This document shows positions 1,484-16,793 of a stretch of 64,000 bases of DNA, one piece after another (the first letter of the stretch is position 1; every line of letters begins with the position of its first letter). The notes under the pieces are model-generated. The model did no database searches. It saw nothing but the letters and a program-made list of their open reading frames with translations, and had not been told where the DNA came from. The translations under genes and the position numbers were made by a program. This DNA comes from Nonlabens spongiae (GTDB taxonomy: Bacteria > Bacteroidota > Bacteroidia > Flavobacteriales > Flavobacteriaceae), in the NCBI RefSeq assembly GCF_002117125.1, contig NZ_CP019344.1, positions 3,162,501-3,226,500 on the forward strand, in the 5' to 3' direction.

Positions 1484-4400
1484 TCAACTATTTTTGTAAA
1501 ATCGGCTTGTTTGTAGGGTGTTATCGGGAAAAGTTATTTTTTTATACCCGTTACCATTTCCCATGCGTTTTTCTTTAAGGCTAATCTGTTTTTCTAAACG
1601 CTGCAAGGTTTGAGGATTTTCTTCAGCGTAACGTGGGTCTTGCATGTAATGACATTTTTCCATTTTGAGAACTTCAATGGAACAGAAGTCAAATTCTTCA
1701 ACAACCTTTCCATAAATTTTATAAACGCTCGGTCCTCTAAAGGTGATTTTTGAGGCTATTTGAGGAAACATGACAGTGTCAAAAAACTCTCCTTTTAAAT
1801 CGAGAAATGTTCCAAATTGCATGCGTTTCCCGTTCTTAGTGTGCGTAGTTTTGATATTTACGGAATAGCCATAAATCAATATATTTTTGCCTACTAGTGT
1901 TACAATATCCTCTCTCGTTAGCTGATTTTTAAGCTGCTCTGACAACAGATTGAAATGAGAGCTAAGTGGAAATCCCAGTACTTCAAATTGCTCGAATGCA
2001 AGCTCTAAATCTGAGCTTTTCAAGCTTGGTATTTTATTTAAGTCAAATGTTTGATGAAAAAGTTTTTTTTGGAGAGTAGGCTTCATCAACTTATCCAATT
2101 TTAAATGTGCTTGCCAAAGAAGTTCGTATCGATCTAGCCCAGTAAACCTGAATGCATTGATTCTAGTCAGTATTGAGATTTGTTCAATCCCTACAAAAAC
2201 TCTATTGAGAAAATTATCTAAATCTTCAAATAGGCCATTTCTTTCACGCTCAGTGACGATCTGGATCATTGTTTTTTTTTCTAATTGTTTGAGATAGCTA
2301 AAACCCAGGTAGATCGTTTTTCCTTTTATAATATTTTTGATGTCACTACTATTAATACAAGGTGGTTCTATGTGCGCGCCACACATCTTGGCTTCGTGAA
2401 CATAAAGCTCTGGCTTATAAAACCCGCCGCCGTTATTTAGAGTGGCTGTCATGTACTCCAGTGGGAAATAACATTTCAAGTAGAGGCTCTGGTAACTTTC
2501 TACGGCGTAGGATGCAGAGTGACCTTTCGCGAAAGCGTAACCGGCAAAACTTTTAATTTGATTCCAGATTTCTTTTGCTTGGTCAGGATCGCGGCCGTGT
2601 TTCTCACAATTCCTGAAATAGTTGCGTTCTACTTGCTTAAACTCTTTACGAGAGCGGTATTTGCCACTCATACCACGTCTCAAGATATCAGCCTCTGCGA
2701 GAGAAAGTTTAGCATAAATATGAGCGACTTTAATAACGTCTTCTTGATACACCATGATGCCATAGGTGTCAGGCATTATCTTATTCATTATGGGATGAGC
2801 CTCTTTGCGTTTCTCTGGAAACCGGGTGCGTAGAATAAATTCCCGCATCATACCGCTCTGAGCCACACCTGGACGGATCACGGAGCTCGCAGCTACTAAA
2901 CCGAGATAGTCATTTGTCGCGAGCTTACTGAGTAGCATGCGCATAGCAGGTGACTCTATGTAAAAGCAACCTATGCATTTTGCCTGCGCGATCATGTTAT
3001 TAATATTAGGATCTTGCATAATTTTTTTTACATCTTTTCTCAAATCCATGACTTCAGCTCCCGGTTGATTATACTTGATTATCTCAAGTGTGTCCCTAAT
3101 CTTTCCCAATCCTCGCTGGGCAAGGATATCAAACTTATGTATACCTGCATCTTCTGCAATATGCATGTCAAACTGGACGGTAGGGTAGCCTTTGGGCGGT
3201 AATGTGGTGGCACTATAATAGTGTATGGGCTTTTCTGTAATGAGAATCCCTCCAGCATGGATGCTTACATAGTTGGGCATATCATGCAATTCAGATCCAT
3301 ATTTGAGCACTAGGTCATGTATCTCATCGCCGGTTTTGCCTTGGGGAGGCATGGATGTGAGTTTATCTATGTCTGATTTAGGAAGTCCAAAAACTTTCCC
3401 TAATTCTCTCACGACCGCCCGAAACTGAAACGTGTTATAGGTCCCGAGCAACGCCACATTTTCAAATTCATCAAAAATAAATCGAGTGATATCTTCGCGA
3501 TCGTCCCATGAAAAATCTATGTCAAAATCTGGGGGGCTGGTACGATAATCGTTGATGAAACGCTCAAAATAAAGATCTAATTCAATAGGGTCAACATCTG
3601 TTATTTCAAGCAAGTAGGCTATGATACTATTTGCCCCACTACCTCTACCTACATAGAAATATCCCTGCTGTCGGGCATATTGACAAATACGCCAGTTGAT
3701 CAAAAAATAACCTACAAACTCCTTTTTGATTACTGTACTGATTTCTTTTTCTACCCGTACCCTTATTTCTTCATTTTCACAGCCGTAACGTTTTTCAATT
3801 CCCTGCTCTACAAGCTCTCTGAGTTTGTGTATATCTGCATCATAATTAAATTTTTCAGTTCTGTGATAAGTTTTTTGATTTGCATTTAAGTTTTTAGATT
3901 CAAAATTGAAGTCTATACTACAACGCCTGAGCAGGTTCTCAGTGTTGGTCAGTATATGTTCATATCCTTCAAAAATTGCTCTGATATGATGTGGCGATCT
4001 CATGATCTCTTCTGGTGAACCTTGCTGCTCTACAGGCAATTGGCTCAGTAGGATGTTGAGATCTATGCAGCGCAGTAGTCTGTGCTTGTTAAAGTCTCTT
4101 TTGTTTCTAAAAGTTACCGTTTCTAGTAATATATGCTTGTCTTTAAGATCATGATAGCTACTGAAGGGCAGTTTTCTTAAGCTTGAATGTGATATTCCTA
4201 TGTATTCGCTTTCGCGAAAGCGAGATAACTTCAGTTTCTCAACTTGTTTCAATGGATATATAAAATACACACTGTCTAGATCAGGTGCATGTTCTGGTAG
4301 ATCAATCTTATTTTCAAGGTGCTTAGAAAGAAACCTGTTTAGATTTAAATAACCTTCATTATTTCTAGCTATACCTACATATAATTGCTGATGTTCATTT

Positions 4401-4594
4401 CTGAAATCAATGCCTATAACAGGTTTTTCACGCTCGTTGTGTAAGAGTCGCACAAAATTGAGAGCGGCACTCGTACTATTAATATCAGTCAAGACAATCG
4501 TATTGAGTTCATGCTGCCTCGCGAGTTCTATGAGATCTTCTTCAGAAAAAGTGCCATAACGCAGAGAAAAATAGGTGTGGTTGTTCAGGTACAT
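1484..4594 (-). CDS. dnaE2: Error-prone DNA polymerase III alpha subunit (DnaE2/ImuC-like)
   Basis: A 1036-aa C-family polymerase, shorter than replicative DnaE. The polymerase active-site segment PPDFDIDFSWDD (DxD aspartates) and the third-acid region KFDILAQRGLGKI are present, and an OB-fold-like segment (IYGYSVNIKTTH onward) follows near the C-terminus. The N-terminal PHP domain is degraded: the usual HxH is replaced in LNNHTYFS, and the TDH motif reads TDI, so PHP proofreading is probably absent. It sits 2 bp after a Y-family polymerase gene, as in DnaE2/ImuB mutasomes. Two copies of the dispersed palindrome lie in the coding sequence (4207-4222 encoding RFRES; 2524-2537 encoding AFAKG in the conserved AGYxFxK motif). 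Translesion synthesis on damaged DNA is the inferred role. Confidence 0.88.
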   Translation of the reverse strand: MYLNNHTYFSLRYGTFSEEDLIELARQHELNTIVLTDINSTSAALNFVRLLHNEREKPVIGIDFRNEHQQLYVGIARNNEGYLNLNRFLSKHLENKIDLPEHAPDLDSVYFIYPLKQVEKLKLSRFRESEYIGISHSSLRKLPFSSYHDLKDKHILLETVTFRNKRDFNKHRLLRCIDLNILLSQLPVEQQGSPEEIMRSPHHIRAIFEGYEHILTNTENLLRRCSIDFNFESKNLNANQKTYHRTEKFNYDADIHKLRELVEQGIEKRYGCENEEIRVRVEKEISTVIKKEFVGYFLINWRICQYARQQGYFYVGRGSGANSIIAYLLEITDVDPIELDLYFERFINDYRTSPPDFDIDFSWDDREDITRFIFDEFENVALLGTYNTFQFRAVVRELGKVFGLPKSDIDKLTSMPPQGKTGDEIHDLVLKYGSELHDMPNYVSIHAGGILITEKPIHYYSATTLPPKGYPTVQFDMHIAEDAGIHKFDILAQRGLGKIRDTLEIIKYNQPGAEVMDLRKDVKKIMQDPNINNMIAQAKCIGCFYIESPAMRMLLSKLATNDYLGLVAASSVIRPGVAQSGMMREFILRTRFPEKRKEAHPIMNKIMPDTYGIMVYQEDVIKVAHIYAKLSLAEADILRRGMSGKYRSRKEFKQVERNYFRNCEKHGRDPDQAKEIWNQIKSFAGYAFAKGHSASYAVESYQSLYLKCYFPLEYMTATLNNGGGFYKPELYVHEAKMCGAHIEPPCINSSDIKNIIKGKTIYLGFSYLKQLEKKTMIQIVTERERNGLFEDLDNFLNRVFVGIEQISILTRINAFRFTGLDRYELLWQAHLKLDKLMKPTLQKKLFHQTFDLNKIPSLKSSDLELAFEQFEVLGFPLSSHFNLLSEQLKNQLTREDIVTLVGKNILIYGYSVNIKTTHTKNGKRMQFGTFLDLKGEFFDTVMFPQIASKITFRGPSVYKIYGKVVEEFDFCSIEVLKMEKCHYMQDPRYAEENPQTLQRLEKQISLKEKRMGNGNGYKKITFPDNTLQTSRFYKNS
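2524..2537. repeat. Dispersed palindrome copy (14-bp form) inside dnaE2
   Basis: CTTTCGCGAAAGCG, core intact, left end trimmed. Read on the minus strand it encodes AFAKG inside the conserved DnaE motif around residues 686-691. Confidence 0.85.
4207..4222. repeat. Dispersed palindrome, full 16-bp copy inside dnaE2
   Basis: CGCTTTCGCGAAAGCG. On the minus strand it encodes RFRES near residue 125 of the polymerase. Confidence 0.9.
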
Positions 4595-4596
4595 AA

Positions 4597-5814
4597 CTAC
4601 TGTTTTCTGTGAGCGAGTACTACGGGTGGTAACCCGTTGAATGGATTGATCATTCTACCTATGGTACGAGCCTCCATGCCAGAGGCCTTAATTACTGTGC
4701 GATCACCGTATTTTTCTCTGATGTTATCTAGTGCGTTGTAGAGATTTATAGCTGTTTCATTATCGTCGAAAAGATTGATTTGATAATGACCGCTTACCAA
4801 ATGTGAGAATCTAATCCCTATGAGCCTTACCAGCAGTCTACGATTATAGAGCCTCTTGAAAAGTTCAAGAATTTTAGGTATCAAAATATGATCTGCACTA
4901 CAAAAAGGAATTCGCAATTGCTTAGAGTACGTATTAAAGTCTGAGTATTTAATTCTAACGGTAATGCAGGCTGTTAACTTGTTTCCCCTACGTAATTGAT
5001 ATGCTAGATTTTCGGTCATGGCTATGAGGATAGATTTCAGCTTACCCACGTCTATAGTGTCTTTGTCAAAGGTGCGTTCAGTACTTATAGACTTACGCTC
5101 ATTAAAAGCTATAACTGGCCTGGGATCGATTCCTTGAGCCCTACGCCAGATTAGGCTACCGTTTTTTCCCAGCACACTGACCATCATATTTTCCTCAAAC
5201 TCTTGGATAGTCCGTATTTTTTTTATTCCCAGATGCCTAAGAGTTTGATAGGTTTTATCACCTACTTGAGGGATTTTTTTAATTGACAATGGTGCCATAA
5301 AGCTTTTTTCTTTACCAAAATCAATCATCTTTTGATTGTTGGGTTTAGCTTCTCCAGTGGCGATTTTAGAAACAATTTTTGTCGCGGATAGTCCAAATGA
5401 TATAGGCAGACCTGTTTCTTTCAAGATCCGCTCACGCATTTCTGTGGCAAATTTGTAGCAGCCATAAAAACGATCCATCCCTGTAAGATCTGCATAGAAT
5501 TCATCGATACTAGATTTTTCAAATAATGGAGTTTCTTCTTTAATGATCTCAGTTACCAGGTCTGAATGTTTTGAGTAGATTCCAGCATTCCCTTTTATAC
5601 AGATGGCTTCAGGGCATAACTGTCTCGCCATCTTCATGGACATACCGCTATGCACTCCGTATTTTCTAGTTTCATAGCTGCAAGCCGCAACCACACCGCG
5701 ATCACTCAGTCCCCCTACTAATAAAGGCTTGTCCTTGAGGCGTGAATCTATTTTGCGCTCAACAGATACATAGAATGTGTCAAGGTCCAAATGGATGATA
5801 CTTCTTTTAAGCAT
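4597..5814 (-). CDS. dinB: Y-family DNA polymerase (DinB/Pol IV type)
   Basis: A 405-aa Y-family polymerase from the ATG at 5814; a TTG four codons upstream is possible but less likely. Catalytic acids are conserved: Asp10 in IIHLDLDTF and Asp104-Glu105 in SSIDEFYAD, with Tyr15 at the steric-gate position. It should therefore be an active polymerase, unlike classical ImuB proteins that lost these residues. A clamp-binding pentapeptide QINLF lies at about residue 345. The gene is followed after 2 bp by the DnaE2-like gene, indicating a two-polymerase translesion module. An apparent intrinsic terminator stands just upstream (5848-5876). Confidence 0.9.
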   Translation of the reverse strand: MLKRSIIHLDLDTFYVSVERKIDSRLKDKPLLVGGLSDRGVVAACSYETRKYGVHSGMSMKMARQLCPEAICIKGNAGIYSKHSDLVTEIIKEETPLFEKSSIDEFYADLTGMDRFYGCYKFATEMRERILKETGLPISFGLSATKIVSKIATGEAKPNNQKMIDFGKEKSFMAPLSIKKIPQVGDKTYQTLRHLGIKKIRTIQEFEENMMVSVLGKNGSLIWRRAQGIDPRPVIAFNERKSISTERTFDKDTIDVGKLKSILIAMTENLAYQLRRGNKLTACITVRIKYSDFNTYSKQLRIPFCSADHILIPKILELFKRLYNRRLLVRLIGIRFSHLVSGHYQINLFDDNETAINLYNALDNIREKYGDRTVIKASGMEARTIGRMINPFNGLPPVVLAHRKQ

Positions 5815-5847
5815 TTGGATTTTCAATTTTTAGGAAATAGGGTGGTC

Positions 5848-5876
5848 AAAAAACCTCACAATCATAGAGTGTGAGG
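5848..5876 (-). terminator. Intrinsic terminator or attenuator inside the mutagenesis operon
   Basis: On the minus strand a perfect 7-bp stem CCTCACA / TGTGAGG with a 9-nt loop (5870-5876 with 5854-5860) is followed by six T residues. It lies between the 97-aa gene and the polymerase genes, with only about 33 bp from the T run to the polymerase ATG. Confidence 0.6.
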
Positions 5877-5931
5877 TCAGTTTTTGCAGAACAACTATTA
5901 ACAGAAGCCCTCGCATTAAATCATAGACTAT

Positions 5932-6225
5932 CTAATCGTCGATATTTCTAATTACTAAATCATAAATGGTTGGCTCTATATGGTCTACAAAGTCCTCTTT
6001 CTCGGAGTCGGTTGCAAAAAGTATTTGATTTTGCGTAATTAACTCATTGAGCGTATGATAGATCCTCTGGACAAGGTCTTCAGTATCTGCAACTTTCTCT
6101 TTCCATGACATTTTAATGTCAAAGCTCGTTAAATTTTGAATCTTGTGCTTCTTCCGTTTTACCATGATTTCTTGGACTCTTAAAGCTAATTGCTCTTTAA
6201 CTTTTTCAATATTCATAGGTTCCAT
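5932..6225 (-). CDS. Conserved-context 97-aa protein of the damage-response operon, function unknown
   Basis: A 97-aa, charged, mostly helical-looking soluble protein with no signal peptide, Cys cluster or recognised motif. A second in-frame ATG (MNIEKVKEQL) lies three codons in. It begins 3 bp after the stop of the SRAP gene, so it is almost certainly co-transcribed with it. Its place, between the regulator-proximal SRAP gene and the two polymerases, is where an accessory mutasome subunit would be expected, but there is no visible ImuA/RecA-like Walker motif and the protein is too short to be ImuA. I do not recognise the family. Confidence 0.7.
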   Translation of the reverse strand: MEPMNIEKVKEQLALRVQEIMVKRKKHKIQNLTSFDIKMSWKEKVADTEDLVQRIYHTLNELITQNQILFATDSEKEDFVDHIEPTIYDLVIRNIDD

Positions 6226-6228
6226 CGT

Positions 6229-7050
6229 TTAGAATAATACAAATTGATCACCTTCTACCAGTCGCTCTGCTTTGATGCTATATATATTATCTTCTTCATA
6301 TTTAACTTGATCATAAAAGGTACGGCCATGTTCTTTGTAAACGCTCTGACCTATAGGTTTCAGTAAAGTAATACCTGTGGCGTCAGGTGATTTAATTTTT
6401 TTTGAAATTGGATAAGCATTGAAATATTTGGGATCAAAAGGCTTCATAATTTGGTTGAGTTTCGATTTTGGTAAATCAGTGTTCAACCATTCTTCTTCTT
6501 GAATTTTTGTTAGGGCTAACGGTGACCTGTGATGACCTATCCTTTGCATTAAGCGGTTTGCAGCTGTTGTGACTATGGCAACCGTATGATGTATTTTACC
6601 TGTAAGTGGATTTTCCCAAGTATCGTAAATTCCAGCAAGTGCAAAGGGTTGTGATTTACCTGTAGGGTACACCAGGAAAGGTTTATTGAGTTTTTCATAC
6701 TTAGACCCTTCAATAAATGCATCCACTATAACCAGACAGCGTTGTGATTTAATTGCTTTTCTGAACATTGGTTTTTGATGTATTTCTTGAGGGCCTATAT
6801 AATGTGGATCATTATCTAAGTTATTTGAGCCTTCAGCACGAGCATTAATTATATACGTTTGCTTATGAGCCCAGGAAGGGGTGAAGCCCAAAGTGAAATT
6901 TTGTATGTGATTAGGGTGTTCACAAGTAATTACTGGGACTTTGTTCCCAGCACTAATATTTACATTTTCAAAAGGCTGATCAATGTAAGATGCATTGAAC
7001 CTTTTCTCTACAATGCGGTGATTTGATAATAAAGTTGCTCTTCCACACAT
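6229..7050 (-). CDS. SOS response-associated peptidase (SRAP/YedK/HMCES family)
   Basis: From the ATG at 7050 the protein is 273 aa and begins MCGRA, placing the catalytic Cys at position 2 after Met removal, as required in SRAP proteins; an upstream in-frame TTG at 7101 is therefore not the start. Other family landmarks are the NARAE segment, RCLVIVDAFIEG carrying the conserved Glu, and HHRSPLAL carrying the active-site His. SRAP proteins form a stable thiazolidine cross-link with abasic sites in single-stranded DNA and shield them. It is the first gene of the leftward operon facing the S24 repressor, with about 50 nt of leader after the candidate -7 box. Confidence 0.92.
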   Translation of the reverse strand: MCGRATLLSNHRIVEKRFNASYIDQPFENVNISAGNKVPVITCEHPNHIQNFTLGFTPSWAHKQTYIINARAEGSNNLDNDPHYIGPQEIHQKPMFRKAIKSQRCLVIVDAFIEGSKYEKLNKPFLVYPTGKSQPFALAGIYDTWENPLTGKIHHTVAIVTTAANRLMQRIGHHRSPLALTKIQEEEWLNTDLPKSKLNQIMKPFDPKYFNAYPISKKIKSPDATGITLLKPIGQSVYKEHGRTFYDQVKYEEDNIYSIKAERLVEGDQFVLF

Positions 7051-7098
7051 AATCTTATAATTTGGAAATATTCCTATATCGGACTTAAATTTAGGATT

Positions 7099-7106
7099 CA
7101 AATATA
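7099..7106 (-). promoter_or_regulatory. Candidate -7 box of the SRAP-polymerase operon
   Basis: TATATTTG on the minus strand matches the Bacteroidetes TAnnTTTG box, about 49 nt before the SRAP ATG. No TTG lies at the usual distance, but operator copies cover the upstream region. Confidence 0.5.
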
Positions 7107-7107
7107 T

Positions 7108-7160
7108 GGAAATAATCCATTAATACGGAAATAATCCAATGTTAAAGTTGGATTATTTCC
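7108..7160. promoter_or_regulatory. Triple operator candidate between the S24 repressor and the mutagenesis operon
   Basis: Three copies of the 12-mer GGAAATAATCCA: direct copies at 7108-7119 and 7127-7138 and an inverted copy at 7149-7160. Each has a GGA-N5-TCC dyad. Copy 3 overlaps the -33 TTG of the repressor promoter, and copies 1 and 2 lie directly upstream of the SRAP operon -7 box. The arrangement fits repression of both directions by the S24 protein. Confidence 0.75.
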
Positions 7161-7177
7161 TAAACTCACTATATTTG
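7148..7177 (+). promoter_or_regulatory. Promoter of the S24 repressor gene
   Basis: TTG at 7148-7150, 19 bp, then TATATTTG at 7170-7177, a full match to the Bacteroidetes sigma consensus TTG/TAnnTTTG. Transcription should begin at or within a few bases of the ATG (7182), so the mRNA may be leaderless. Confidence 0.7.
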
Positions 7178-7181
7178 TGTC

Positions 7182-7955
7182 ATGGCAACAGAATTGACTA
7201 CCGAAGCAAAGCGATTTAAACAGATTAGAGAAGAACTATCAAAAACTCAGACTGAGTTTGCAAAGCTTCTCGATGCTGGAAGTACCACTGCAGATATTGA
7301 GCGTGGTAAAAAAAAGATAACCGGTAAAATTGTCTCTGAGCTTCTGAGACAATTTAATGTCAACCCTCTTTGGTTATATGGAACTAGTTACAACAAATAT
7401 TTAGAAACTGGGCGTTCCACCTCACCGCAAGTAATCACTATGGATACTAGTGATAGAGAAAATATGATCATGGTACCCATTAAAGCCAGTGCGGGATATG
7501 CCAGCAATATACAAGATACAGATTGGTATAATGAACTGCCCACGTTTTCTATCCCATTGCCTCAGTATAAAGAGGGAAGTTATAGGGCGTTTCAAGTAAA
7601 AGGGGATAGTATGTTGCCTGTATTACAGCCAGATGAGTGGGTCATGGGAAAGTCTGTTGAAAGTTTAAGACTAGCCACAGATAACCGAATTCACGTGGTT
7701 GTAACAAATGATAGTATATTAGTTAAGAAAATGCGTAAATCTGACTCGGCAAGATCTGTAAATCTTATTTCACTCAACAGAGAATACCCTGTCATAGAGC
7801 AGCCAGTCGGAGAAATTAAAGAATTATGGGAAGTGAACTCTAAGCTAAGTTTTGACTTAGATGTTCATGAGGGTGAAGAAGTATTAATGTCATTGAAGCA
7901 GGGGCTGGACAGACTACGTGAAGAAATTGCAAGTATCAAAGAAGGAGGCTCATAA
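7182..7955 (+). CDS. XRE-HTH / S24 peptidase transcriptional regulator (LexA/CI-like)
   Basis: A 257-aa protein with an N-terminal helix-turn-helix (about residues 8-65) and a C-terminal S24 self-cleavage domain. The Ala-Gly scissile pair is at 104-105 (KASAGYA), the nucleophile Ser143 is in KGDSM, and the general-base Lys is 182 or 183 in ILVKKM; these spacings resemble LexA and UmuD. RecA-stimulated autocleavage would derepress its targets. It is divergent from the SRAP-polymerase operon across an 80-130 bp region holding three repeated operator-like sites. A strong terminator follows the stop. It is probably the local SOS switch in place of canonical LexA, which I infer from context. Confidence 0.88.
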   Translation: MATELTTEAKRFKQIREELSKTQTEFAKLLDAGSTTADIERGKKKITGKIVSELLRQFNVNPLWLYGTSYNKYLETGRSTSPQVITMDTSDRENMIMVPIKASAGYASNIQDTDWYNELPTFSIPLPQYKEGSYRAFQVKGDSMLPVLQPDEWVMGKSVESLRLATDNRIHVVVTNDSILVKKMRKSDSARSVNLISLNREYPVIEQPVGEIKELWEVNSKLSFDLDVHEGEEVLMSLKQGLDRLREEIASIKEGGS

Positions 7956-7985: not shown

Positions 7986-8153
7986 TTAGTCTGGATCTTC
8001 TTCTGTAGGGTTAGTGTCGTAACCTTCTTCATCTGTACCATCACTAACATCAGATTTCAACTGTTCTACTTCAACTTCTTTTTCCTCTCTACAACTCATT
8101 AAAGCAGGAGAAGCTACAAAAAGCGCGAGAGCTAGGTAAAGTATTCTATTCAT
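7986..8153 (-). CDS. Small acidic SCRE lipoprotein (55 aa)
   Basis: A 55-aa ORF, MNRILYLALALF onward, with a signal peptide and lipobox-like LMSC at residues 18-21, followed by REEKEVEVEQ and an acidic tail. The mature start SCREEKEVE closely resembles the SCRETEKETE and SCRETTEKEVE starts of the lipoproteins at 16176-16406 and 16518-16793, so the three look paralogous. They flank the large adhesin locus on both sides. The mature peptide is about 35 residues, highly acidic, without Cys other than the lipidation site. Function unknown; envelope localisation is inferred. Confidence 0.7.
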   Translation of the reverse strand: MNRILYLALALFVASPALMSCREEKEVEVEQLKSDVSDGTDEEGYDTNPTEEDPD

Positions 8154-8442: not shown

Positions 8443-11400
8443 ATGTCCATTACTACACCTTTTTTAAGCTTTAGATCAATACGTTATAAAGGATTTCTTT
8501 CTTGGCTCTTTTTTTTGTTGATATACTATTCAGAGTCTTCTACTAATCTTACACTGAACTTGTTTAGTGATTTTAATGAACTCGATAACGTTTCTCCAAG
8601 GCTATTGGAATCATTGCAAACTGACACCGACGGCGATGGGGTGGTTGACTCTGTCGACATCGACGATGACGGCGACGGCATCCTTGACGTTGACGAGGAC
8701 TCGTGCAGCGGCGCGTTGTCGGGAACCGGTAGCCTGAACTACGCCTTTTTTGACCAGCGTCCCTCGGGCAACAGCGTGGACAACATCCCTGCGTCCGGTT
8801 CGGCCCTGGCCACAGGCACGGTATCGAGCTTCAACGTGGCTAACCTCCAGTCATCGATCACCCCAGCCGACGGCAACACCTATTCGATCCGCTACAGCGG
8901 CGTGATCGAGATAGCCTTTGGCGGGAGCTATACCTTCTTCGTGAACAGCGACGACGGCTCGAAGCTGTTTGTCGACGGCACGGAGGTGGTGGACAACGAC
9001 GGCCGCCACCCCCCACGTGAGGAGTCGGGATCGATCACTCTTATGGCGGGTACGTATTCCCTTGAGGTCCTCTATTTTGACGACACCGGTGGTCAGATCC
9101 TCGAGGTGGAGTATTCCAGTTCCTCGATATCGCGGCGCTCCCTTCCCTTCTCGGTATTGGGTACGGGAACGGATTCTACCTGCGACGGTGACGGCGACGG
9201 TCTCGTGGACCGCCTTGACCTGGATTCGGACAATGACGGGATACCGGACAACGTCGAGGCCCAGGCGACTGTGGGCTACGTAGCCCCAAGCGGTCTGGAT
9301 GACGACGGCGATGGTCTTGACAATGCCTACGACGCGACGCCCAACGGGAGCAGTGACGGTTCCGGCAGCCTTGGCCTGACTCCGTTGAACACGGACGGCT
9401 CCGGCGAGGCTGACTACCGCGACCTCGACTCCGACGGCGACGGCCTCTTTGACATAGGGGAGTCCGGCCTGGGCCTTGTGGACGGCAACGCCGACGGGCG
9501 CACGGACGGCGTGGTGGGTGCCAACGGCCTTGACGCCGCCGTGGACACCTCGGACGACTACCTGGATCCCAACGGCATCGTGGACGTTCCCTCCGATGAC
9601 CTAACGGACTCCGACCTTGACGCGCTCTCTGGAGGGGACGTGGACTACAGGGACTCCGTTGACAGCGCGGTGGTCCTGGAGGCGGTGGATGATTCCTTGA
9701 CGGTTCCCCAGGGCGCCGACAGTACCGAGGCAATCAACGTATTGGACAACGATACCATAAACGGTTCTCCGGCGGACATCGCCCTTGTGGACCTGACTCA
9801 GCTTGGCACGGGCGATCCCGGCATCACCCTTGACGTTTCTACGGGAGCCCTGAGCGTGTCCCCCTCGGTCGCGGCCGGGAGCTATGTCCTGAGCTACAGG
9901 ATCTGCCAGTCGGGTTCGGCCACGAACTGCGATGATGCCATCGTATCGGTGACCGTGGAGGAAGACACCGACGGCGATGGGGTGGTTGACTCTGTCGACA
10001 TCGACGATGACGGCGACGGCATCCTTGACGTTGACGAGGACTCGTGCAGCGGCGCGTTGTCGGGAACCGGTAGCCTGAACTACGCCTTTTTTGACCAGCG
10101 TCCCTCGGGCAACAGCGTGGACAACATCCCTGCGTCCGGTTCGGCCCTGGCCACAGGCACGGTATCGAGCTTCAACGTGGCTAACCTCCAGTCATCGATC
10201 ACCCCAGCCGACGGCAACACCTATTCGATCCGCTACAGCGGCGTGATCGAGATAGCCTTTGGCGGGAGCTATACCTTCTTCGTGAACAGCGACGACGGCT
10301 CGAAGCTGTTTGTCGACGGCACGGAGGTGGTGGACAACGACGGCCGCCACCCCCCACGTGAGGAGTCGGGATCGATCACTCTTATGGCGGGTACGTATTC
10401 CCTTGAGGTCCTCTATTTTGACGACACCGGTGGTCAGATCCTCGAGGTGGAGTATTCCAGTTCCTCGATATCGCGGCGCTCCCTTCCCTTCTCGGTATTG
10501 GGTACGGGAACGGATTCTACCTGCGACGGTGACGGCGACGGTCTCGTGGACCGCCTTGACCTGGATTCGGACAATGACGGGATACCGGACAACGTCGAGG
10601 CCCAGGCGACTGTGGGCTACGTAGCCCCAAGCGGTCTGGATGACGACGGCGATGGTCTTGACAATGCCTACGACGCGACGCCCAACGGGAGCAGTGACGG
10701 TTCCGGCAGCCTTGGCCTGACTCCGTTGAACACGGACGGCTCCGGCGAGGCTGACTACCGCGACCTCGACTCCGACGGCGACGGCCTCTTTGACATAGGG
10801 GAGTCCGGCCTGGGCCTTGTGGACGGCAACGCCGACGGGCGCACGGACGGCGTGGTGGGTGCCAACGGCCTTGACGCCGCCGTGGACACCTCGGACGACT
10901 ACCTGGATCCCAACGGCATCGTGGACGTTCCCTCCGATGACCTAACGGACTCCGACCTTGACGCGCTCTCTGGAGGGGACGTGGACTACAGGGACTCCGT
11001 TGACAGCGCGGTGGTCCTGGAGGCGGTGGATGATTCCTTGACGGTTCCCCAGGGCGCCGACAGTACCGAGGCAATCAACGTATTGGACAACGATACCATA
11101 AACGGTTCTCCGGCGGACATCGCCCTTGTGGACCTGACTCAGCTTGGCACGGGCGATCCCGGCATCACCCTTGACGTTTCTACGGGAGCCCTGAGCGTGT
11201 CCCCCTCGGTCGCGGCCGGGAGCTATGTCCTGAGCTACAGGATCTGCCAGTCGGGTTCGGCCACGAACTGCGATGATGCCATCGTATCGGTGACCGTGGA
11301 GGAAGACACCGACGGCGATGGGGTGGTTGACTCTGTCGACATCGACGATGACGGCGACGGCATCCTTGACGTTGACGAGGACTCGTGCAGCGGCGCGTTG

Positions 11401-14244
11401 TCGGGAACCGGTAGCCTGAACTACGCCTTTTTTGACCAGCGTCCCTCGGGCAACAGCGTGGACAACATCCCTGCGTCCGGTTCGGCCCTGGCCACAGGCA
11501 CGGTATCGAGCTTCAACGTGGCTAACCTCCAGTCATCGATCACCCCAGCCGACGGCAACACCTATTCGATCCGCTACAGCGGCGTGATCGAGATAGCCTT
11601 TGGCGGGAGCTATACCTTCTTCGTGAACAGCGACGACGGCTCGAAGCTGTTTGTCGACGGCACGGAGGTGGTGGACAACGACGGCCGCCACCCCCCACGT
11701 GAGGAGTCGGGATCGATCACTCTTATGGCGGGTACGTATTCCCTTGAGGTCCTCTATTTTGACGACACCGGTGGTCAGATCCTCGAGGTGGAGTATTCCA
11801 GTTCCTCGATATCGCGGCGCTCCCTTCCCTTCTCGGTATTGGGTACGGGAACGGATTCTACCTGCGACGGTGACGGCGACGGTCTCGTGGACCGCCTTGA
11901 CCTGGATTCGGACAATGACGGGATACCGGACAACGTCGAGGCCCAGGCGACTGTGGGCTACGTAGCCCCAAGCGGTCTGGATGACGACGGCGATGGTCTT
12001 GACAATGCCTACGACGCGACGCCCAACGGGAGCAGTGACGGTTCCGGCAGCCTTGGCCTGACTCCGTTGAACACGGACGGCTCCGGCGAGGCTGACTACC
12101 GCGACCTCGACTCCGACGGCGACGGCCTCTTTGACATAGGGGAGTCCGGCCTGGGCCTTGTGGACGGCAACGCCGACGGGCGCACGGACGGCGTGGTGGG
12201 TGCCAACGGCCTTGACGCCGCCGTGGACACCTCGGACGACTACCTGGATCCCAACGGCATCGTGGACGTTCCCTCCGATGACCTAACGGACTCCGACCTT
12301 GACGCGCTCTCTGGAGGGGACGTGGACTACAGGGATGTCAATAATGATCAAGATACGGACGGTGATGGTGTAGCAGATCGACTTGACGTAGATGATGATA
12401 ATGACGGTATACTTGATGCCACTGAAGAACAATGTGAATCCTCAACAGCACTTGTTAGCGCAATTAGTGACTCTAATATTCAGAGTGGTCAGGGAGGAGT
12501 TGTGCAAATCAATGATGGAATTGTAAGTGCAAATTCTGGAGTAGCTATGAATAATGTTTCGCATTACTTTGTAATAGATTTGGGCTCTACATTAAGTCCT
12601 GGATCTATCATCAGGTTTGATTGGTGGACAAATAATGGAGCTAATAGACAACATACAATTACTGAAGTTTCCTCATCTTCAGGTTCAGCTTCTGGATCAA
12701 ATCCATTAATTGTAAACTATCCTAATTCAAGCGATCAAAACTTTTACGAATACAGTCTAGCCGGTTTTTCACGGTACATACTGGTTGATATGACAAGAAG
12801 ATCAGCTGGTAGAGTAGAAATATTAGAAGCTACAATAACAAGCATTTGCAATTCAGACTCTGATGGTGATGGTATAGTGAACAGTCTTGACCTGGACTCA
12901 GACAACGACGGCATACCGGACAACATTGAATCACAATCTACAGTGGGGTATATTGCCCCAAGCGGTCTAGATGATGATGGAGATGGTCTTGACAATGCCT
13001 ACGATGCAACTCCTAATGGAAATGCTAATGGTGATGGAAGTATTGGTATAACTCCAGAGAATACGGACGGCACGGACCTTCCTGACTATCTGGATACCGA
13101 CTCCGACAACGATGGTCTTTTTGACATAGACGAGAGCGGAGACGGTCTGACGGATTCAAATGGCGATGGCCGCACGGACGGAGTAGTAGGCAACAACGGT
13201 CTTGAAGATACCGTGGATGATCCTGTGGCCGGTGATGGCTATGACGATCCAAGCGGTAAGTATGACGACACCCAGACGGACAACTTCACCGATACCGATG
13301 GAGATGTTCTTGCGGGAGGTGACGTGGACTATAGGGATGTTCTTGACTTTGATGTGGACATGCCTACACAGACCGTACTGGAGAACAATGCGTTCACTTC
13401 CGTGGCTCCCACCCTGACCAACTCACCCGGCGGCACGATTACCTATAGCCTGGGTGGTGTTGACGCAGCGGACTTCACGATCGACCCTGTAACGGGAGTA
13501 GTGAGCATGGTGGCGCGGGACTTCGAGAACCCGGTTGATGACAATACCAACAACTTCTACAACCTCACGATCATTGCGACCTCGAGCGTGGGCCCGGTTG
13601 CCACGGATGACTTCACGGTAATCGTTAACAACGAATGCGAGGATATAGACGTGGTACAGAACAAGTTGAGGGCAACGGATCCGATAGGCGTTGCCTCCAG
13701 CAGTGACAACGCGGTGCTACAGGTCGAGGTTACCGATGCCAGTGGAGCTCCGAGATCAGGCGTTCAGGTGAGCATAAGCCTCGAGAGCGGCAGCGCGAGC
13801 TTCGTGACGGCCAGCACGGGAACCACAGATGCCAGTGGATTGTTCAGTGCGACGGTATCGAGCACGGTCGTGGGCACGCCTACCTTCTCCGCGAGGTATG
13901 CCGCTACCACCGGAGCACCAGATACCGATGTGGAACTGGGCAACCCGACACCGGTGAGGTTCCTATCCAGCATCGACGACAGGGAAGCCTGTGGAGAGGT
14001 AGGAATAGCCGTGAGCATGCCACACCCATCATCGGTACTTGAGGTATTCAGTGAGGACAAGGGAGTGCTCATACCTAGCGTGGCCCTGTTGAGCTGTTCG
14101 GATACCAGTACGATCCCTAATCCAGCGACTTCACTGCTTGTCTACAACACAAACGCGAGTCCTTCTTTAGGTGTAGGTTTTGTGTTCTTCGATGGTGCAG
14201 AGTGGAGGAGTATCTGTCTGGAACGTGATCAGTTGAGGCAGTAG
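8443..14244 (+). CDS. Giant repeat-built surface adhesin-like protein (PA14, TSP3, Ig-like, cadherin-like, tail-fibre-like module)
   Basis: About 1933 aa from the ATG at 8443 (an upstream GTG at 8428 is possible). After a hydrophobic export segment (about residues 22-33) come two full 447-aa units and one partial unit (about residues 61-507, 508-954, 955-1298). Each starts with Asp-rich calcium-binding DxDxDG repeats, continues with a PA14-like domain ([12 protein letters not shown]), more thrombospondin-3-like repeats, and, in the full units, an Ig-like domain ([11 protein letters not shown]). A non-repeated stretch follows with a different beta domain and TSP3 repeats, then a cadherin-like domain, an invasin-like domain and a C-terminal module ([25 protein letters not shown]). 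Codon use in the repeats is far more GC-rich than in neighbouring genes. I see no type IX C-terminal sorting signal. A calcium-stiffened surface adhesin is the inferred role. Confidence 0.8.
8623..9963. repeat. Long in-frame tandem repeat, unit 1 (1341 bp)
   Basis: First of two full 1341-bp units, beginning GACACCGACGGCGATGG. I find no difference from unit 2 in the stretches compared. Length is 447 codons exactly. Confidence 0.9.
9964..11304. repeat. Long in-frame tandem repeat, unit 2 (1341 bp)
   Basis: Second full unit, abutting unit 1 and unit 3 without spacer. Confidence 0.9.
11305..12335. repeat. Long in-frame tandem repeat, partial unit 3 (1031 bp)
   Basis: Matches the first 1031 bp of the unit, then diverges abruptly after CTACAGGGA into AT-rich sequence. 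The Ig-like part of the unit is missing. Confidence 0.9.
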
Positions 14245-14261
14245 ATTTCAAATTTCGGTCT

Positions 14262-14277
14262 CGCTTTCGCGGAAGCG
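14262..14277. repeat. Dispersed palindrome, one-mismatch copy between the adhesin and its neighbour
   Basis: CGCTTTCGCGGAAGCG, differing from the palindrome by one base, 17 bp after the adhesin stop. Confidence 0.75.
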
Positions 14278-14303
14278 GGACCCAACAAAACATAGAACCG
14301 GGC

Positions 14304-15317
14304 ATGGACCCAAAACGAATCTTGAGAATGGATTACCAAAACAAAAGAAACCCAAATAGTTCCAAAACCGGCAACCAGTCGTCATTTGGACTCATGTTGT
14401 CCCTTTTGCTGCTACCGCTCTCGCTCATGGCGCAGTTCAGCGTCGACAGCTACGGCGACCAGGGCGTGAACGAGAACGTTGCCTACACCAGCCCGGCGGC
14501 AAGCATCACGGGCACACCGGTGGGCACGGTTACCTACAGCCTTTCCGGTCCTGATGCGTCCCTATTCACGATCAACTCCTCAAACGGAGTGGTGAGCATG
14601 GTGGAGCGCGACTACGAGTCGCCCCTGGATACTGATGGGAACAACCTCTACAGCGTGACGGTGGTGGGTACGGACTCTGACACCAACACGTCGGAGCGCG
14701 AGCTGGACGTGGTGGTCTTTAACGACTGCAGTGCGAGCGACACCCCACAGATGTTCAAGCTGTCCGCTCCGGACTCGCTTGGGGATACGATGGGCGACAC
14801 GGCAACGCTGCGCATAAGCCTGATAGGAAGTGGCGGCGTCCCACAGGATGGAGTCGCGGTGATGTTTGTGAAGACCAGTGGGCCTGCCAGCATCACGAGT
14901 CCGAGCGGCACGACCAATGCCTCGGGTATCTACGAGAGTACGGTAACCTCGGCAAGTGCGGGCGTATCGGAGTTCACGGCCATGTACGACACTACAGGGA
15001 ACGGTACGCCAGATACGACGGTGACCCTGGGATCGCCCACCGCGATACAGTTCACGACCGATGTGTCCAGCTTCAATACGGGTGGCCACGTTGGAATAGG
15101 TACGGAGACTCCAGACAGTTCAACGGTGCTTGAAGTTGCCGGTACGGATAAAGGGGTATTGATCCCCAGGGTGGCGCTTACCGGTACGGCGGATACGGCC
15201 ACGATAACCAATCCCGCGGTATCACTGTTGGTATACAACACGGCAGCCGTTGGTGGCCTGGAGGTCGGTTTCGTGTTCTGGGATGGTAGCGAGTGGAAGA
15301 GCGTCTGTGCGCGATAG
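14304..15317 (+). CDS. Secreted cadherin-like / invasin-like protein sharing the adhesin C-terminal module
   Basis: A 337-aa protein with a signal peptide ending near LMAQ (an ATG at 14328 could also be the start). A cadherin-like domain follows (VNENVAYTSP to ERELDVVV), then an invasin Big_1-like domain (GVPQDGVAVMFVKTSG, TTNASGIYESTV), and a C-terminal module VGIGTETPDSSTVLEV, DKGVLIPRVALTG, SLLVYNT, GFVFWDGSEW. The last three parts are clear paralogues of the end of the giant protein upstream, so the gene looks like a shortened relative lacking the TSP3/PA14 repeats. The body is GC-rich while the first ~90 bp is AT-rich. The C-terminal module resembles that of Bacteroidetes phage-tail-fibre-like proteins, from memory. 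Confidence 0.72.
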   Translation: MDPKRILRMDYQNKRNPNSSKTGNQSSFGLMLSLLLLPLSLMAQFSVDSYGDQGVNENVAYTSPAASITGTPVGTVTYSLSGPDASLFTINSSNGVVSMVERDYESPLDTDGNNLYSVTVVGTDSDTNTSERELDVVVFNDCSASDTPQMFKLSAPDSLGDTMGDTATLRISLIGSGGVPQDGVAVMFVKTSGPASITSPSGTTNASGIYESTVTSASAGVSEFTAMYDTTGNGTPDTTVTLGSPTAIQFTTDVSSFNTGGHVGIGTETPDSSTVLEVAGTDKGVLIPRVALTGTADTATITNPAVSLLVYNTAAVGGLEVGFVFWDGSEWKSVCAR

Positions 15318-15428
15318 GAGATCAAAGACCTAGAATTGAGCAACGTAAGAACGTTGGTAAACTATAATCAATTAAACCATAAGTGGTCGCTCCTGAAAGG
15401 GAAGGATCGTAAAAGATAGAAGCAAGAG

Positions 15429-16076
15429 ATGAGAAAAAACAGGTTGATATTAGCGATGGCATCCTTATGCATGGCAGTAGGCCTTGCAGATACCGGGCTG
15501 GATAGGGGCAGGCCCGATCTGGAGCAGTCCCGTTTTGAGGCCGTGGATGCGGTGGGAGATATGCTGGGCGATGGTGGCCAGGTGGGACTTACCCTAAGGG
15601 ATACTGAAGGCCAGCTTATGCCGGGAGTATCGGTACGCCTGACGGTGGAGAGTGGGGAGGCAACCCTTGCAACGGTGAATGGAAAGACCGATGGATCGGG
15701 AAGGTTTGAGAGCTTTCTCTTCAGCAGGGTACAGACCGTGGCCGTGGTACGTGCGGAAGTGGATACGGACGGAGATGGAGTGGTGGACCGAGCGCTCGCG
15801 CAAAGATCCACGGTTGCATTTATAGACAGCCTTGCGCTCAATACGGGCGTGGGCATCAACATCGATACCCCTGACGATAGTGCGGTACTCCACGTGAACT
15901 CCAGCAACAGGGGCGTGATGATCCCAAGGGTGGCACTACAGGGCTGTTCAGATCGCGTGACGATCCTGGATCCCGCAACTTCCCTGCTGGTATTCAACAC
16001 AAATGCCTCCGACTCACTCAAGGTAGGCTACGCCTACTTCAATGGTACGGACTGGGTGAACTTCTTGTTTGACTGA
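15429..16076 (+). CDS. Short secreted protein with invasin-like domain and the same C-terminal module
   Basis: A 215-aa protein with an N-terminal hydrophobic signal (MRKNRLILAMASLCMAV). It has an invasin-like domain (GQLMPGVSVRLTVESG, KTDGSGRFESF), one DTDGDGVVD calcium loop, and the C-terminal module GVGINIDTPDDSAVLHV, NRGVMIPRVALQG, SLLVFNT, GYAYFNGTDW. It is the third consecutive gene with this ending, each shorter than the one before. GC-rich like its neighbour. A strong terminator follows 25 bp after the stop, so the three genes may form one transcription unit. Function unknown; a surface role is inferred from export signal and domains. Confidence 0.7.
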   Translation: MRKNRLILAMASLCMAVGLADTGLDRGRPDLEQSRFEAVDAVGDMLGDGGQVGLTLRDTEGQLMPGVSVRLTVESGEATLATVNGKTDGSGRFESFLFSRVQTVAVVRAEVDTDGDGVVDRALAQRSTVAFIDSLALNTGVGINIDTPDDSAVLHVNSSNRGVMIPRVALQGCSDRVTILDPATSLLVFNTNASDSLKVGYAYFNGTDWVNFLFD

Positions 16077-16100
16077 GTCCTGAAACTGACTACATAGATA

Positions 16101-16129
16101 AAAAGCGATCCAGTTGGATCGCTTTTTTT
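16101..16129 (+). terminator. Terminator of the adhesin gene cluster
   Basis: Perfect 11-bp stem AAAAGCGATCC / GGATCGCTTTT with loop AGTT, followed by more T residues. Confidence 0.9.
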
Positions 16130-16132
16130 ATC

Positions 16133-16157
16133 AAAAAGAGCCGCTTTAAAGCGGCTC
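16133..16157 (-). terminator. Terminator of the 76-aa lipoprotein gene
   Basis: Self-complementary GAGCCGCTTTAAAGCGGCTC followed on the minus strand by TTTTT; it faces the previous terminator. Confidence 0.85.
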
Positions 16158-16175: not shown

Positions 16176-16406
16176 TTAGTTATCATCACCTATTTCATCT
16201 ATTTCTTCATCTATTTCCTCGTTGACCTCTTCATCAACTGCTTTACCTGCTCTTTCAAGGATTCCTTCGGTTTCCTCAGCAGCTTCTTCTGTTTCAATTT
16301 CAACCTCTTTGATAACGGTTTCAGTTTCTTTTTCAGTCTCACGACAAGATGTAAATCCAGCGGCTGATAAAAAGATTGCAAAAAATGTGTAAAATACTTG
16401 TTTCAT
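16176..16406 (-). CDS. Small acidic SCRE lipoprotein (76 aa)
   Basis: A 76-aa protein with signal peptide and a lipidation site in GFTSC (Cys21), followed by RETEKETETVIKEVEIE and a Glu/Asp-rich tail that should be helical. It is a sister of the next gene (SCRETTEKEVE) and of the 55-aa lipoprotein at 7986-8153. Preceded by a good promoter (TAGATTTG, TTG at 23 bp) and followed by its own terminator, so it is expressed on its own. Strongly negative mature chain with no recognisable domain. Function unknown; periplasmic or outer-membrane tethered. Confidence 0.8.
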   Translation of the reverse strand: MKQVFYTFFAIFLSAAGFTSCRETEKETETVIKEVEIETEEAAEETEGILERAGKAVDEEVNEEIDEEIDEIGDDN

Positions 16407-16517: not shown

Positions 16518-16793
16518 CTACATGTCGTCGTCCATTCCATCAGTTTCTTCTTCTACTTCATTTTCTATGTCCTCAGCACCTTCTTCAAGGTCATTTTCTA
16601 TTTCTTCAGCTCCTTGTTCCATGGCATCACCCATTTCTTCCATCTCATTTTCCATATCTTCTCCTACTTCCTCCATGTCGTTTTCCATCTCGTTCATTTC
16701 AGTCTCGACTTCTTTTTCTGTAGTCTCACGACAAGATGTGAATACGGCAGTTGCAGAAAATAAAAGGGCTAGTGTTAGTACTACTTTTTTCAT
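16518..16793 (-). CDS. Small acidic SCRE lipoprotein (91 aa) with heptad-like EM/DME repeats
   Basis: A 91-aa protein with signal peptide and lipidation Cys21 in FTSC, then RETTEKEVETEMNEMEND and a run of alternating Met/Glu/Asp segments that would form a highly acidic helix or coiled coil. It is a paralogue of the 76-aa gene next to it. It has its own promoter (TAGTTTTG box 16825-16818) and terminator. The composition, almost only E, D, M, A, G and V after the Cys, is unusual. No function recognised. Confidence 0.8.
   Translation of the reverse strand: MKKVVLTLALLFSATAVFTSCRETTEKEVETEMNEMENDMEEVGEDMENEMEEMGDAMEQGAEEIENDLEEGAEDIENEVEEETDGMDDDM

Follow-up and report, generated by a model that had tools for sequence, protein, structure and literature searches.

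Two groups of described proteins lie closest to the locus reported here, an adhesin-like gene of Nonlabens spongiae (Flavobacteriaceae) that carries a perfect tandem array of a 1341-base unit. The gene occupies positions 8443-14244 of a 64,000-base stretch of contig NZ_CP019344.1 (positions 3,162,501 to 3,226,500, forward strand), and this whole stretch is referred to below as the window. Periscope Proteins, as described in PMC8201768 and PMC9704523, are likewise surface-type proteins with long, near-identical repeat domains in frame, and PMC8201768 defines them by tandem repeats of more than 50 residues with an identity of 80% or more. The units in the window are 447 residues long and 100% identical. 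In the same accounts, length change is ascribed, as a proposal, to recombination between identical DNA, and the repeats form a stalk, with the functional domain typically at the N-terminal tip (PMC8201768, PMC9704523). In contrast, the PA14 domain of the Nonlabens protein lies inside the repeat, 60 codons precede the array, and the arrangement of a stalk with a separate N-terminal domain was not found. The large adhesin MpAFP (MpIBP) of Marinomonas primoryensis also combines a PA14 domain bearing adjacent aspartates with identical tandem repeats, there about 120 copies of an Ig-like unit of 104 residues (PMC8092209, PMC4083281). In the Nonlabens gene the repeat itself includes PA14. The PA14 domain of MpAFP is located outside its identical repeats.

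An earlier note on this DNA, made from the sequence alone, had claimed perfect 1341-bp tandem units, two full and one partial of 1031 bp, within the coding frame. Direct self-comparison of the window bore this out. At an offset of 1341 a single unbroken identical run of 2372 bases was obtained (8623-10994 against 9964-12335), and at an offset of 2682 a single identical run of 1031 bases (8623-9653), giving zero mismatches and zero indels across 8623-12335 and an array of 2.77 copies. The repeat length excludes a chance origin. A search of the 64 kb for direct repeats gave no further exact ones of at least 40 bases. Genome-wide, the same three copies were recovered at 100%, and two other DNA matches reached only 70-71% over about 357 bases. 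The unit is exactly 447 codons, as the note had stated, and the frame stays open throughout the array; an alternative start at GTG 8428 would give 1938 aa, but the ATG at 8443 was judged better. By eye, the copy starts coincide with a TSP3 motif, copy 3 stops at DYRD, and the boundaries are module edges. The note's word "giant" is fair for the genus, where open frames reach 9873 aa, but the gene itself is modest at 1933 aa. Its features are as follows (GC3, GC content at third codon positions).

8443..14244, plus strand: adhesin-like open frame, 1933 aa from the ATG, corresponding to a 1933-aa database protein
8443..8622, plus strand: 60 N-terminal codons, including a hydrophobic stretch that resembles a signal (by eye), AT-rich, GC 0.311
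8623..9963, plus strand: repeat copy 1, 447 codons, GC 0.624, GC3 0.774
8851..9144, plus strand: PA14 domain of copy 1, unit residues 77-174, with Asp-Asp at unit residues 110-111
9654..9963, plus strand: predicted Ig-like part of copy 1, the piece missing from copy 3
9964..11304, plus strand: repeat copy 2, identical
11305..12335, plus strand: repeat copy 3, partial (1031 bases), identical, ending before the divergent module
12336..12860, plus strand: start of a fourth, divergent module that lacks PA14, GC 0.377

Two antisense frames of 185 aa each (9176-9733 and 10517-11074, minus strand) lie one repeat length apart and are thus identical; we judge both to be by-products of the GC-rich repeat rather than genes.

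Each unit follows the order TSP3-type motifs, PA14, more TSP3 and an Ig-like part. Of the content that the earlier note had assigned to the unit, PA14 was detected by Pfam once per copy, in three stretches (PF07691, 169.8 bits). The TSP3 family (PF18884) scored 18.7, under its gathering score of 25, yet each unit holds eight DxDxDG motifs, and the Ig-like domain comes from the predicted model. Pfam listed no RTX repeat family for the 1933-aa protein, and NCBIfam gave two weak matches, far under cut-off. Structure prediction of one unit (30-sequence alignment) reached a mean pLDDT of 85.1 and a pTM of 0.59, with strands at about 87-165 (PA14 part) and 357-446 (Ig-like part). PA14 domains headed the Foldseek matches of this model (E 2e-9 to 7e-9, rmsd 3-5 Å), with 6qdi first, followed by the PA14 lectins 6x8a, 6m8m and 5j6y (E 4e-9 to 7e-9, TM-score by target 0.63-0.66); 6x8a is the sugar-bound lectin of M. 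primoryensis. A sequence search of the PDB with the unit gave 6qdi at 1e-20 and 6m8m at 6.5e-7. Adjacent aspartates hold calcium in PA14 lectins according to PMC8092209, and the unit has Asp110-Asp111 within SDDGS, so that both family with fold and the aspartate pair of such lectins were found. On the model, the PA14 domain of the unit appears closest in fold to calcium-dependent lectins, and the unit probably binds carbohydrate.

Module turnover by recombination best explains the array, and we hold this explanation with good confidence. The unit would be one whole extracellular module from a surface adhesin of modular build. It would have multiplied in frame, and its identity would be maintained by homologous recombination within the gene, through unequal crossing-over and gene conversion. 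Common TSP3-coding DNA may supply recombination partners, whether among the copies of one gene or across loci. Three PA14 carbohydrate-binding domains probably stand in series on the protein, so that a change in copy number would alter the binding-site count as well as the length. The age of the array was gauged against a second locus of the same genome, which shares the end of the adhesin gene. None of 450 fourfold codons differed along the array (95% upper bound 0.66%), against 18 of 549 between the two loci, or 12 of 529 once the first 147 bases are excluded. Because of this difference, the array is either younger than the locus duplication or kept identical, in agreement with the earlier suggestion of very recent duplication or ongoing conversion.

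Similar arrays were found in relatives. Genomes are labelled G (G000 is the window genome) and loci L, and 95 regions were compared: the window and two further loci of its genome, 13 regions from 10 congeners, and 79 named-record loci. In five of them at least two full copies followed each other exactly in tandem, namely the window, G004, G007 and G018 (three of the 10 congeners), and L117. All 12 of the runs printed (at most four per region) had a period divisible by 3 and lay inside an open frame. The longest exact repeat among the regions, 5195 bases in G009, is dispersed. A different module, of 1161 bases, evolves in concert in G009 and G015, with a mean identity of 99.58% within G009 (11 full copies) and 97.22% within G015 (10 copies) versus 83.45% between them. 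The 3053-aa frame of G001 (L035) matches the 9873-aa frame of G009 (L026+L027) at 96.6-97.8% in three long stretches; these two frames, from near species, differ mainly by their module arrays, with one partial module copy in G001 versus 11 full and several partial copies in G009; the G001 assembly may be collapsed, and "single-copy" there means apparently single.

Several observations weigh against module turnover as the explanation. N. spongiae is represented by one genome, and no copy-number polymorphism was seen. Copy 3 is without the Ig-like part, and a single duplication is therefore insufficient. Seven of the 10 congeners and 78 of the 79 named-record loci yielded no exact tandem run of two full copies, although drafts hide such runs, draft and metagenome contigs being poorly suited to showing exact arrays. 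An exact repeat of at least 200 residues was present in only 2, this protein included, of 120 listed homologous proteins. Finally, a type 9 secretion tail (PF18962 or PF13585) is absent at all three adhesin loci of the genome, where no transport or anchoring signal was identified; the genome as a whole is rich in such tails (PF18962, 50 of 53 matches over cut-off; PF13585, 12 of 13).

The surprise of the locus is the GC signature of its copied modules, which is present here and in most of the tested relatives. Against the GC3 of the unit, 31 other ORFs (open reading frames) that we picked in the window averaged 0.381 (sd 0.056, maximum 0.518). Within the gene, GC3 was 0.283 in the N-terminal codons and 0.440 at the start of module 4; it was 0.573-0.707 in the genes that lie in the tract common to this locus and locus 2, 0.291 in the unshared part of the locus 2 adhesin and 0.234-0.299 at the third locus. 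In 400-base windows, GC rose from 0.28 to 0.60 near 8623 and fell from 0.66 through 0.48 to 0.40 near 12336. The nearest relative of the unit is the AT-rich PA14 module of locus 2 in the same genome (260 identical of 444 aligned residues). At third positions, G/C in the unit stood opposite A/T in this relative 136 times and the reverse 23 times (p 1e-20), and where the residues differ, first and second positions of the unit were also GC-richer (0.582 vs 0.438). The row that set TSP3b of the unit against module 4 was out of frame, with 14 identical residues, and is excluded. Fourfold GC of the unit was 0.75 versus 0.09-0.52, none above 0.516, in 23 homologous segments (of 40 usable; 19 loci of other genera, among the matches listed in a GTDB-wide scan, not all with PA14).

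Fourfold GC also rose with repeat redundancy along all seven giant ORFs compared, from six congeners (rho 0.90, 0.90, 0.88, 0.78, 0.52, 0.47 and 0.30, the last not significant). An eighth ORF, the nearly repeat-free one of G001, was without a trend, yet the homologous module in it is GC-rich (0.53-0.66). With the amino acid held constant, exact-repeat codons were GC-richer than single-copy codons in 23 of 26 ORFs (9/9 from Nonlabens, 14/17 from others), with z above 3 in 19 and below -3 in one; these ORFs, of at least 900 aa and passing thresholds of 600 repeated and 900 single bases, came from 106 regions. When homologous codons of the same ORF were compared, repeats were GC-richer in 20 of 23 ORFs, 14 of them at p < 0.01 (pooled, 3762 vs 1293 codons; three further ORFs had too few pairs), and one ORF, of 2023 aa in G040, was significant in the opposite direction. 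The ORFs of one genus are not independent of each other, nor are the two ORFs of G015 or the two of G018. Stretches from other genera outside the named records were hand-picked for long frames or close-set matches (20 stretches from 17 of 167 matching genomes), and six of the 17 gave no passing ORF. Two ORFs from outside Flavobacteriaceae entered the homologous-codon comparison, of which L097 was positive and L065 null. The extreme case is the 8565-aa frame of G088 (L169+L170), with fourfold GC of 0.512 in repeats, 0.081 in single-copy parts and 0.128 in a genome sample.

GC-biased gene conversion would explain the excess, but direct tests disagree. The giant-adhesin repeats of Flavobacteriaceae would then record this process: copies that go on converting each other would gain synonymous GC, and their single-copy relatives within that gene would sink to the level set by mutation; higher synonymous GC in copies is its expected mark and is what the 20 of 23 ORFs show. 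We put this forward tentatively, as a serious possibility short of an even chance. Lassalle 2015 (PMC4450053) argues for GC-biased conversion in bacteria, with GC higher where recombination is more frequent, and a 2019 review (PMC6429543), citing Bobay and Ochman 2017, describes the prokaryote case as not very convincing. As here, GC and recombination were compared inside one genome in Lassalle 2015, although the contrast there was between gene families showing signs of recombination among related strains or species and families lacking them (PMC4450053), and not between copies and single-copy relatives in one gene. Among the papers listed in literature searches, judged by title and abstract start, there was no account of this subject, which is no proof that none exists.

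In the one polarised comparison, the apparently single-copy module had undergone 22 GC-to-AT and 6 AT-to-GC changes and the multi-copy module 7 and 8 (Fisher p 0.046); at third positions alone the counts were 12 and 5 for the single-copy and 6 and 4 for the multi-copy module. Unpolarised third positions leaned weakly, with 68 G/C-rich in G009 and 48 in G015 for the module, and, for G009 against G001, 18 and 12 in the module and 51 and 42 in the single-copy flank. AT-to-GC variants were not commoner among copies, either in G015 (mean 4.9 of 10 copies at 18 sites vs 5.5 for GC-to-AT at 37 sites, p 0.50) or in G009 (5 of 11 at 4 sites vs 8 at 5 sites). The GC excess showed no significant correlation with genome GC (17 genomes, rho 0.26, p 0.31; seven Nonlabens, rho 0.64, p 0.12), and repeat GC exceeded genome GC in 11 of 20 ORFs. 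These 20 of the 26 ORFs exclude five named-record loci without a genome sample and G122, whose sample was a 785-base contig, and the reference is rough, being one 20-kb stretch per genome (G000, 0.478 vs 0.380 from other window genes; G009, 0.347 vs 0.464 elsewhere). Tandem paralogous genes showed no GC excess in their repeated parts in G010 (0.277 vs 0.294 and 0.280) and little in G011 (0.295 vs 0.264 and 0.261); such between-gene repeats lie outside the 26-ORF and 23-ORF comparisons. The variant frequencies, the lack of significant scaling, the result for G010 and the GC-rich but apparently single module of G001 all argue against GC-biased conversion.

A foreign GC-rich module, imported into an AT-rich adhesin gene and amplified once, recently, without biased conversion, is a real possibility that we would not call probable. 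Import is consistent with the sharp GC edges near 8623 and 12336, with the GC-rich module of G001 and with the diverged copies of G009, which are also GC-rich. However, none of the 23 homologous segments is a GC-rich relative, the nearest relative is AT-rich and in the same genome, and recurrence of the pattern in many species would require many separate imports. Preferential amplification, in which GC-rich modules recombine more readily so that GC causes repetition and not the reverse, appears rather unlikely. It predicts the same correlation of GC with repeats, and the finding that AT-to-GC variants are no commoner than GC-to-AT variants among copies is as expected without bias, but the loss of GC in the single-copy module (22 vs 6) and not in the multi-copy one (7 vs 8) speaks against it. 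Selection on synonymous sites, acting through translation or mRNA structure to keep the repeats identical and GC-rich, is improbable; it fits an excess at third positions with the amino acid constant, but the codons compared are in the same gene and have the same expression, and the rise extends to first and second positions at differing residues. The weakest alternative concerns the array itself, namely that the assembler duplicated a single module, which we judge very unlikely: the copies are letter-perfect and tandem repeats are a known cause of assembly errors (PMC6868369), but the array lies within a contig of 3,379,276 bases (3.38 Mb) in a genome of 3,393,235 bases, 2 contigs and 99.98% completeness, similar in-frame arrays exist in single-contig genomes of other species (G007, G004), and the array stops at module edges with a partial copy.

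The adhesin gene is the first of a three-gene set, whose genes 2 and 3 resemble its C-terminal part. The earlier note had overlooked this set, as well as the second and third loci, the empty site and the GC mosaic. The remaining features around it are listed below.

14304..15317, plus strand: gene 2, 337 aa, with cadherin-like, Big_1-like and C-terminal modules (PF26696, database annotation of the same protein)
15429..16076, plus strand: gene 3, 215 aa, Big_1-like, with a C-terminal module like those of genes 1 and 2
16105..16129, plus strand: GC hairpin with a T run behind gene 3, close to the duplicated tract's right edge (read from the sequence; not in the scan's site list)
7986..8153, minus strand: small lipoprotein-like gene, left of the inserted set
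16176..16406, minus strand: small lipoprotein-like gene, right of the inserted set
12861..16137, plus strand: tract of 3277 bases, matching a second locus 1.28 Mb away at 98.4% identity with no gaps

The tract shared by both loci comprises the adhesin end and the two following genes, and its right edge falls just past the hairpin. The second locus lies on the opposite strand (C1, about 1891.9-1895.1 kb) and has an adhesin frame of 3711 aa; a more diverged third set is located at about 966-970 kb of the same genome. Among the 52 tract differences, 31 are synonymous, 13 fall in residue-changing codons and 8 lie outside genes, a pattern that looks as for two working copies. Thirteen of the 52 mismatches cluster in the first 147 of the 3277 bases (12900-13007, p 4e-7); no donor module was identified for this cluster, several candidate segments being out of register and the test uninformative. 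By eye, a TSP3-X-TSP3 layout with other X domains recurs in locus 2 and in other genera.

The site appears empty in the congeners read. The distance between the SRAP and DUF2461 genes is at most 2.8 kb in all those congeners (21 of 22) in which both neighbours were found, against 9.8 kb in the window. In 16 of 22 congeners, those with the region fetched, the S24 gene and DUF2461 lie 64-1921 bases apart, and neither genes 2 and 3 nor the adhesin's first 65 codons had a match at this junction. Longer gaps there mostly hold small lipoprotein-like genes, with other small genes as well in G018. Because lipoprotein-like genes flank the set on both sides in the window, it was most simply inserted between them. 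Members of this lipoprotein-like family (7986-8153, 16176-16406 and 16518-16793) vary in number between congeners at the junction. Directly upstream of the set, at 1484-7955, are DnaE-type polymerase, Y-family polymerase, SRAP and S24/LexA-like genes, which we take to be of the SOS mutagenesis type; in the 16 congeners read, SRAP and S24 occupy the same position.

Besides that of the window, eight apparent source contigs, told apart by length alone, carry PF26696-annotated adhesins among the 120 listed proteins, and six of the eight lengths recur for a gene-2 homologue, which suggests that adhesin and gene 2 travel together. The C-terminal module (PF26696 by database annotation) is common to genes 1, 2 and 3. 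Matches to gene 3 occur in 23 of 23 genus genomes, and those listed from congeners fall nearly all within the C-terminal stretch. Gene-2 homologues bearing this module also carry tail-fibre, collagen or C1q domains. PHROGs returned nothing for genes 2 and 3, and in a PDB search a profile of gene 2 matched Ig domains of intimin (about 1e-6). In the gene 2 model, residues 291-337 have a pLDDT by block of 79-94. The C-terminal module perhaps serves sorting or assembly, and as a guess the shared module may be an anchor.

The repeat is real and a good example of known behaviour, the variant being that the binding domain lies within the repeated unit. If the protein is size-variable, each recombination event would change its valency and not its reach alone. 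Identical modules beside diverged single-copy relatives in one gene remove expression, location and amino acid as confounders, and such arrays would offer a within-gene, within-genome test of GC-biased conversion, a process disputed in bacteria.

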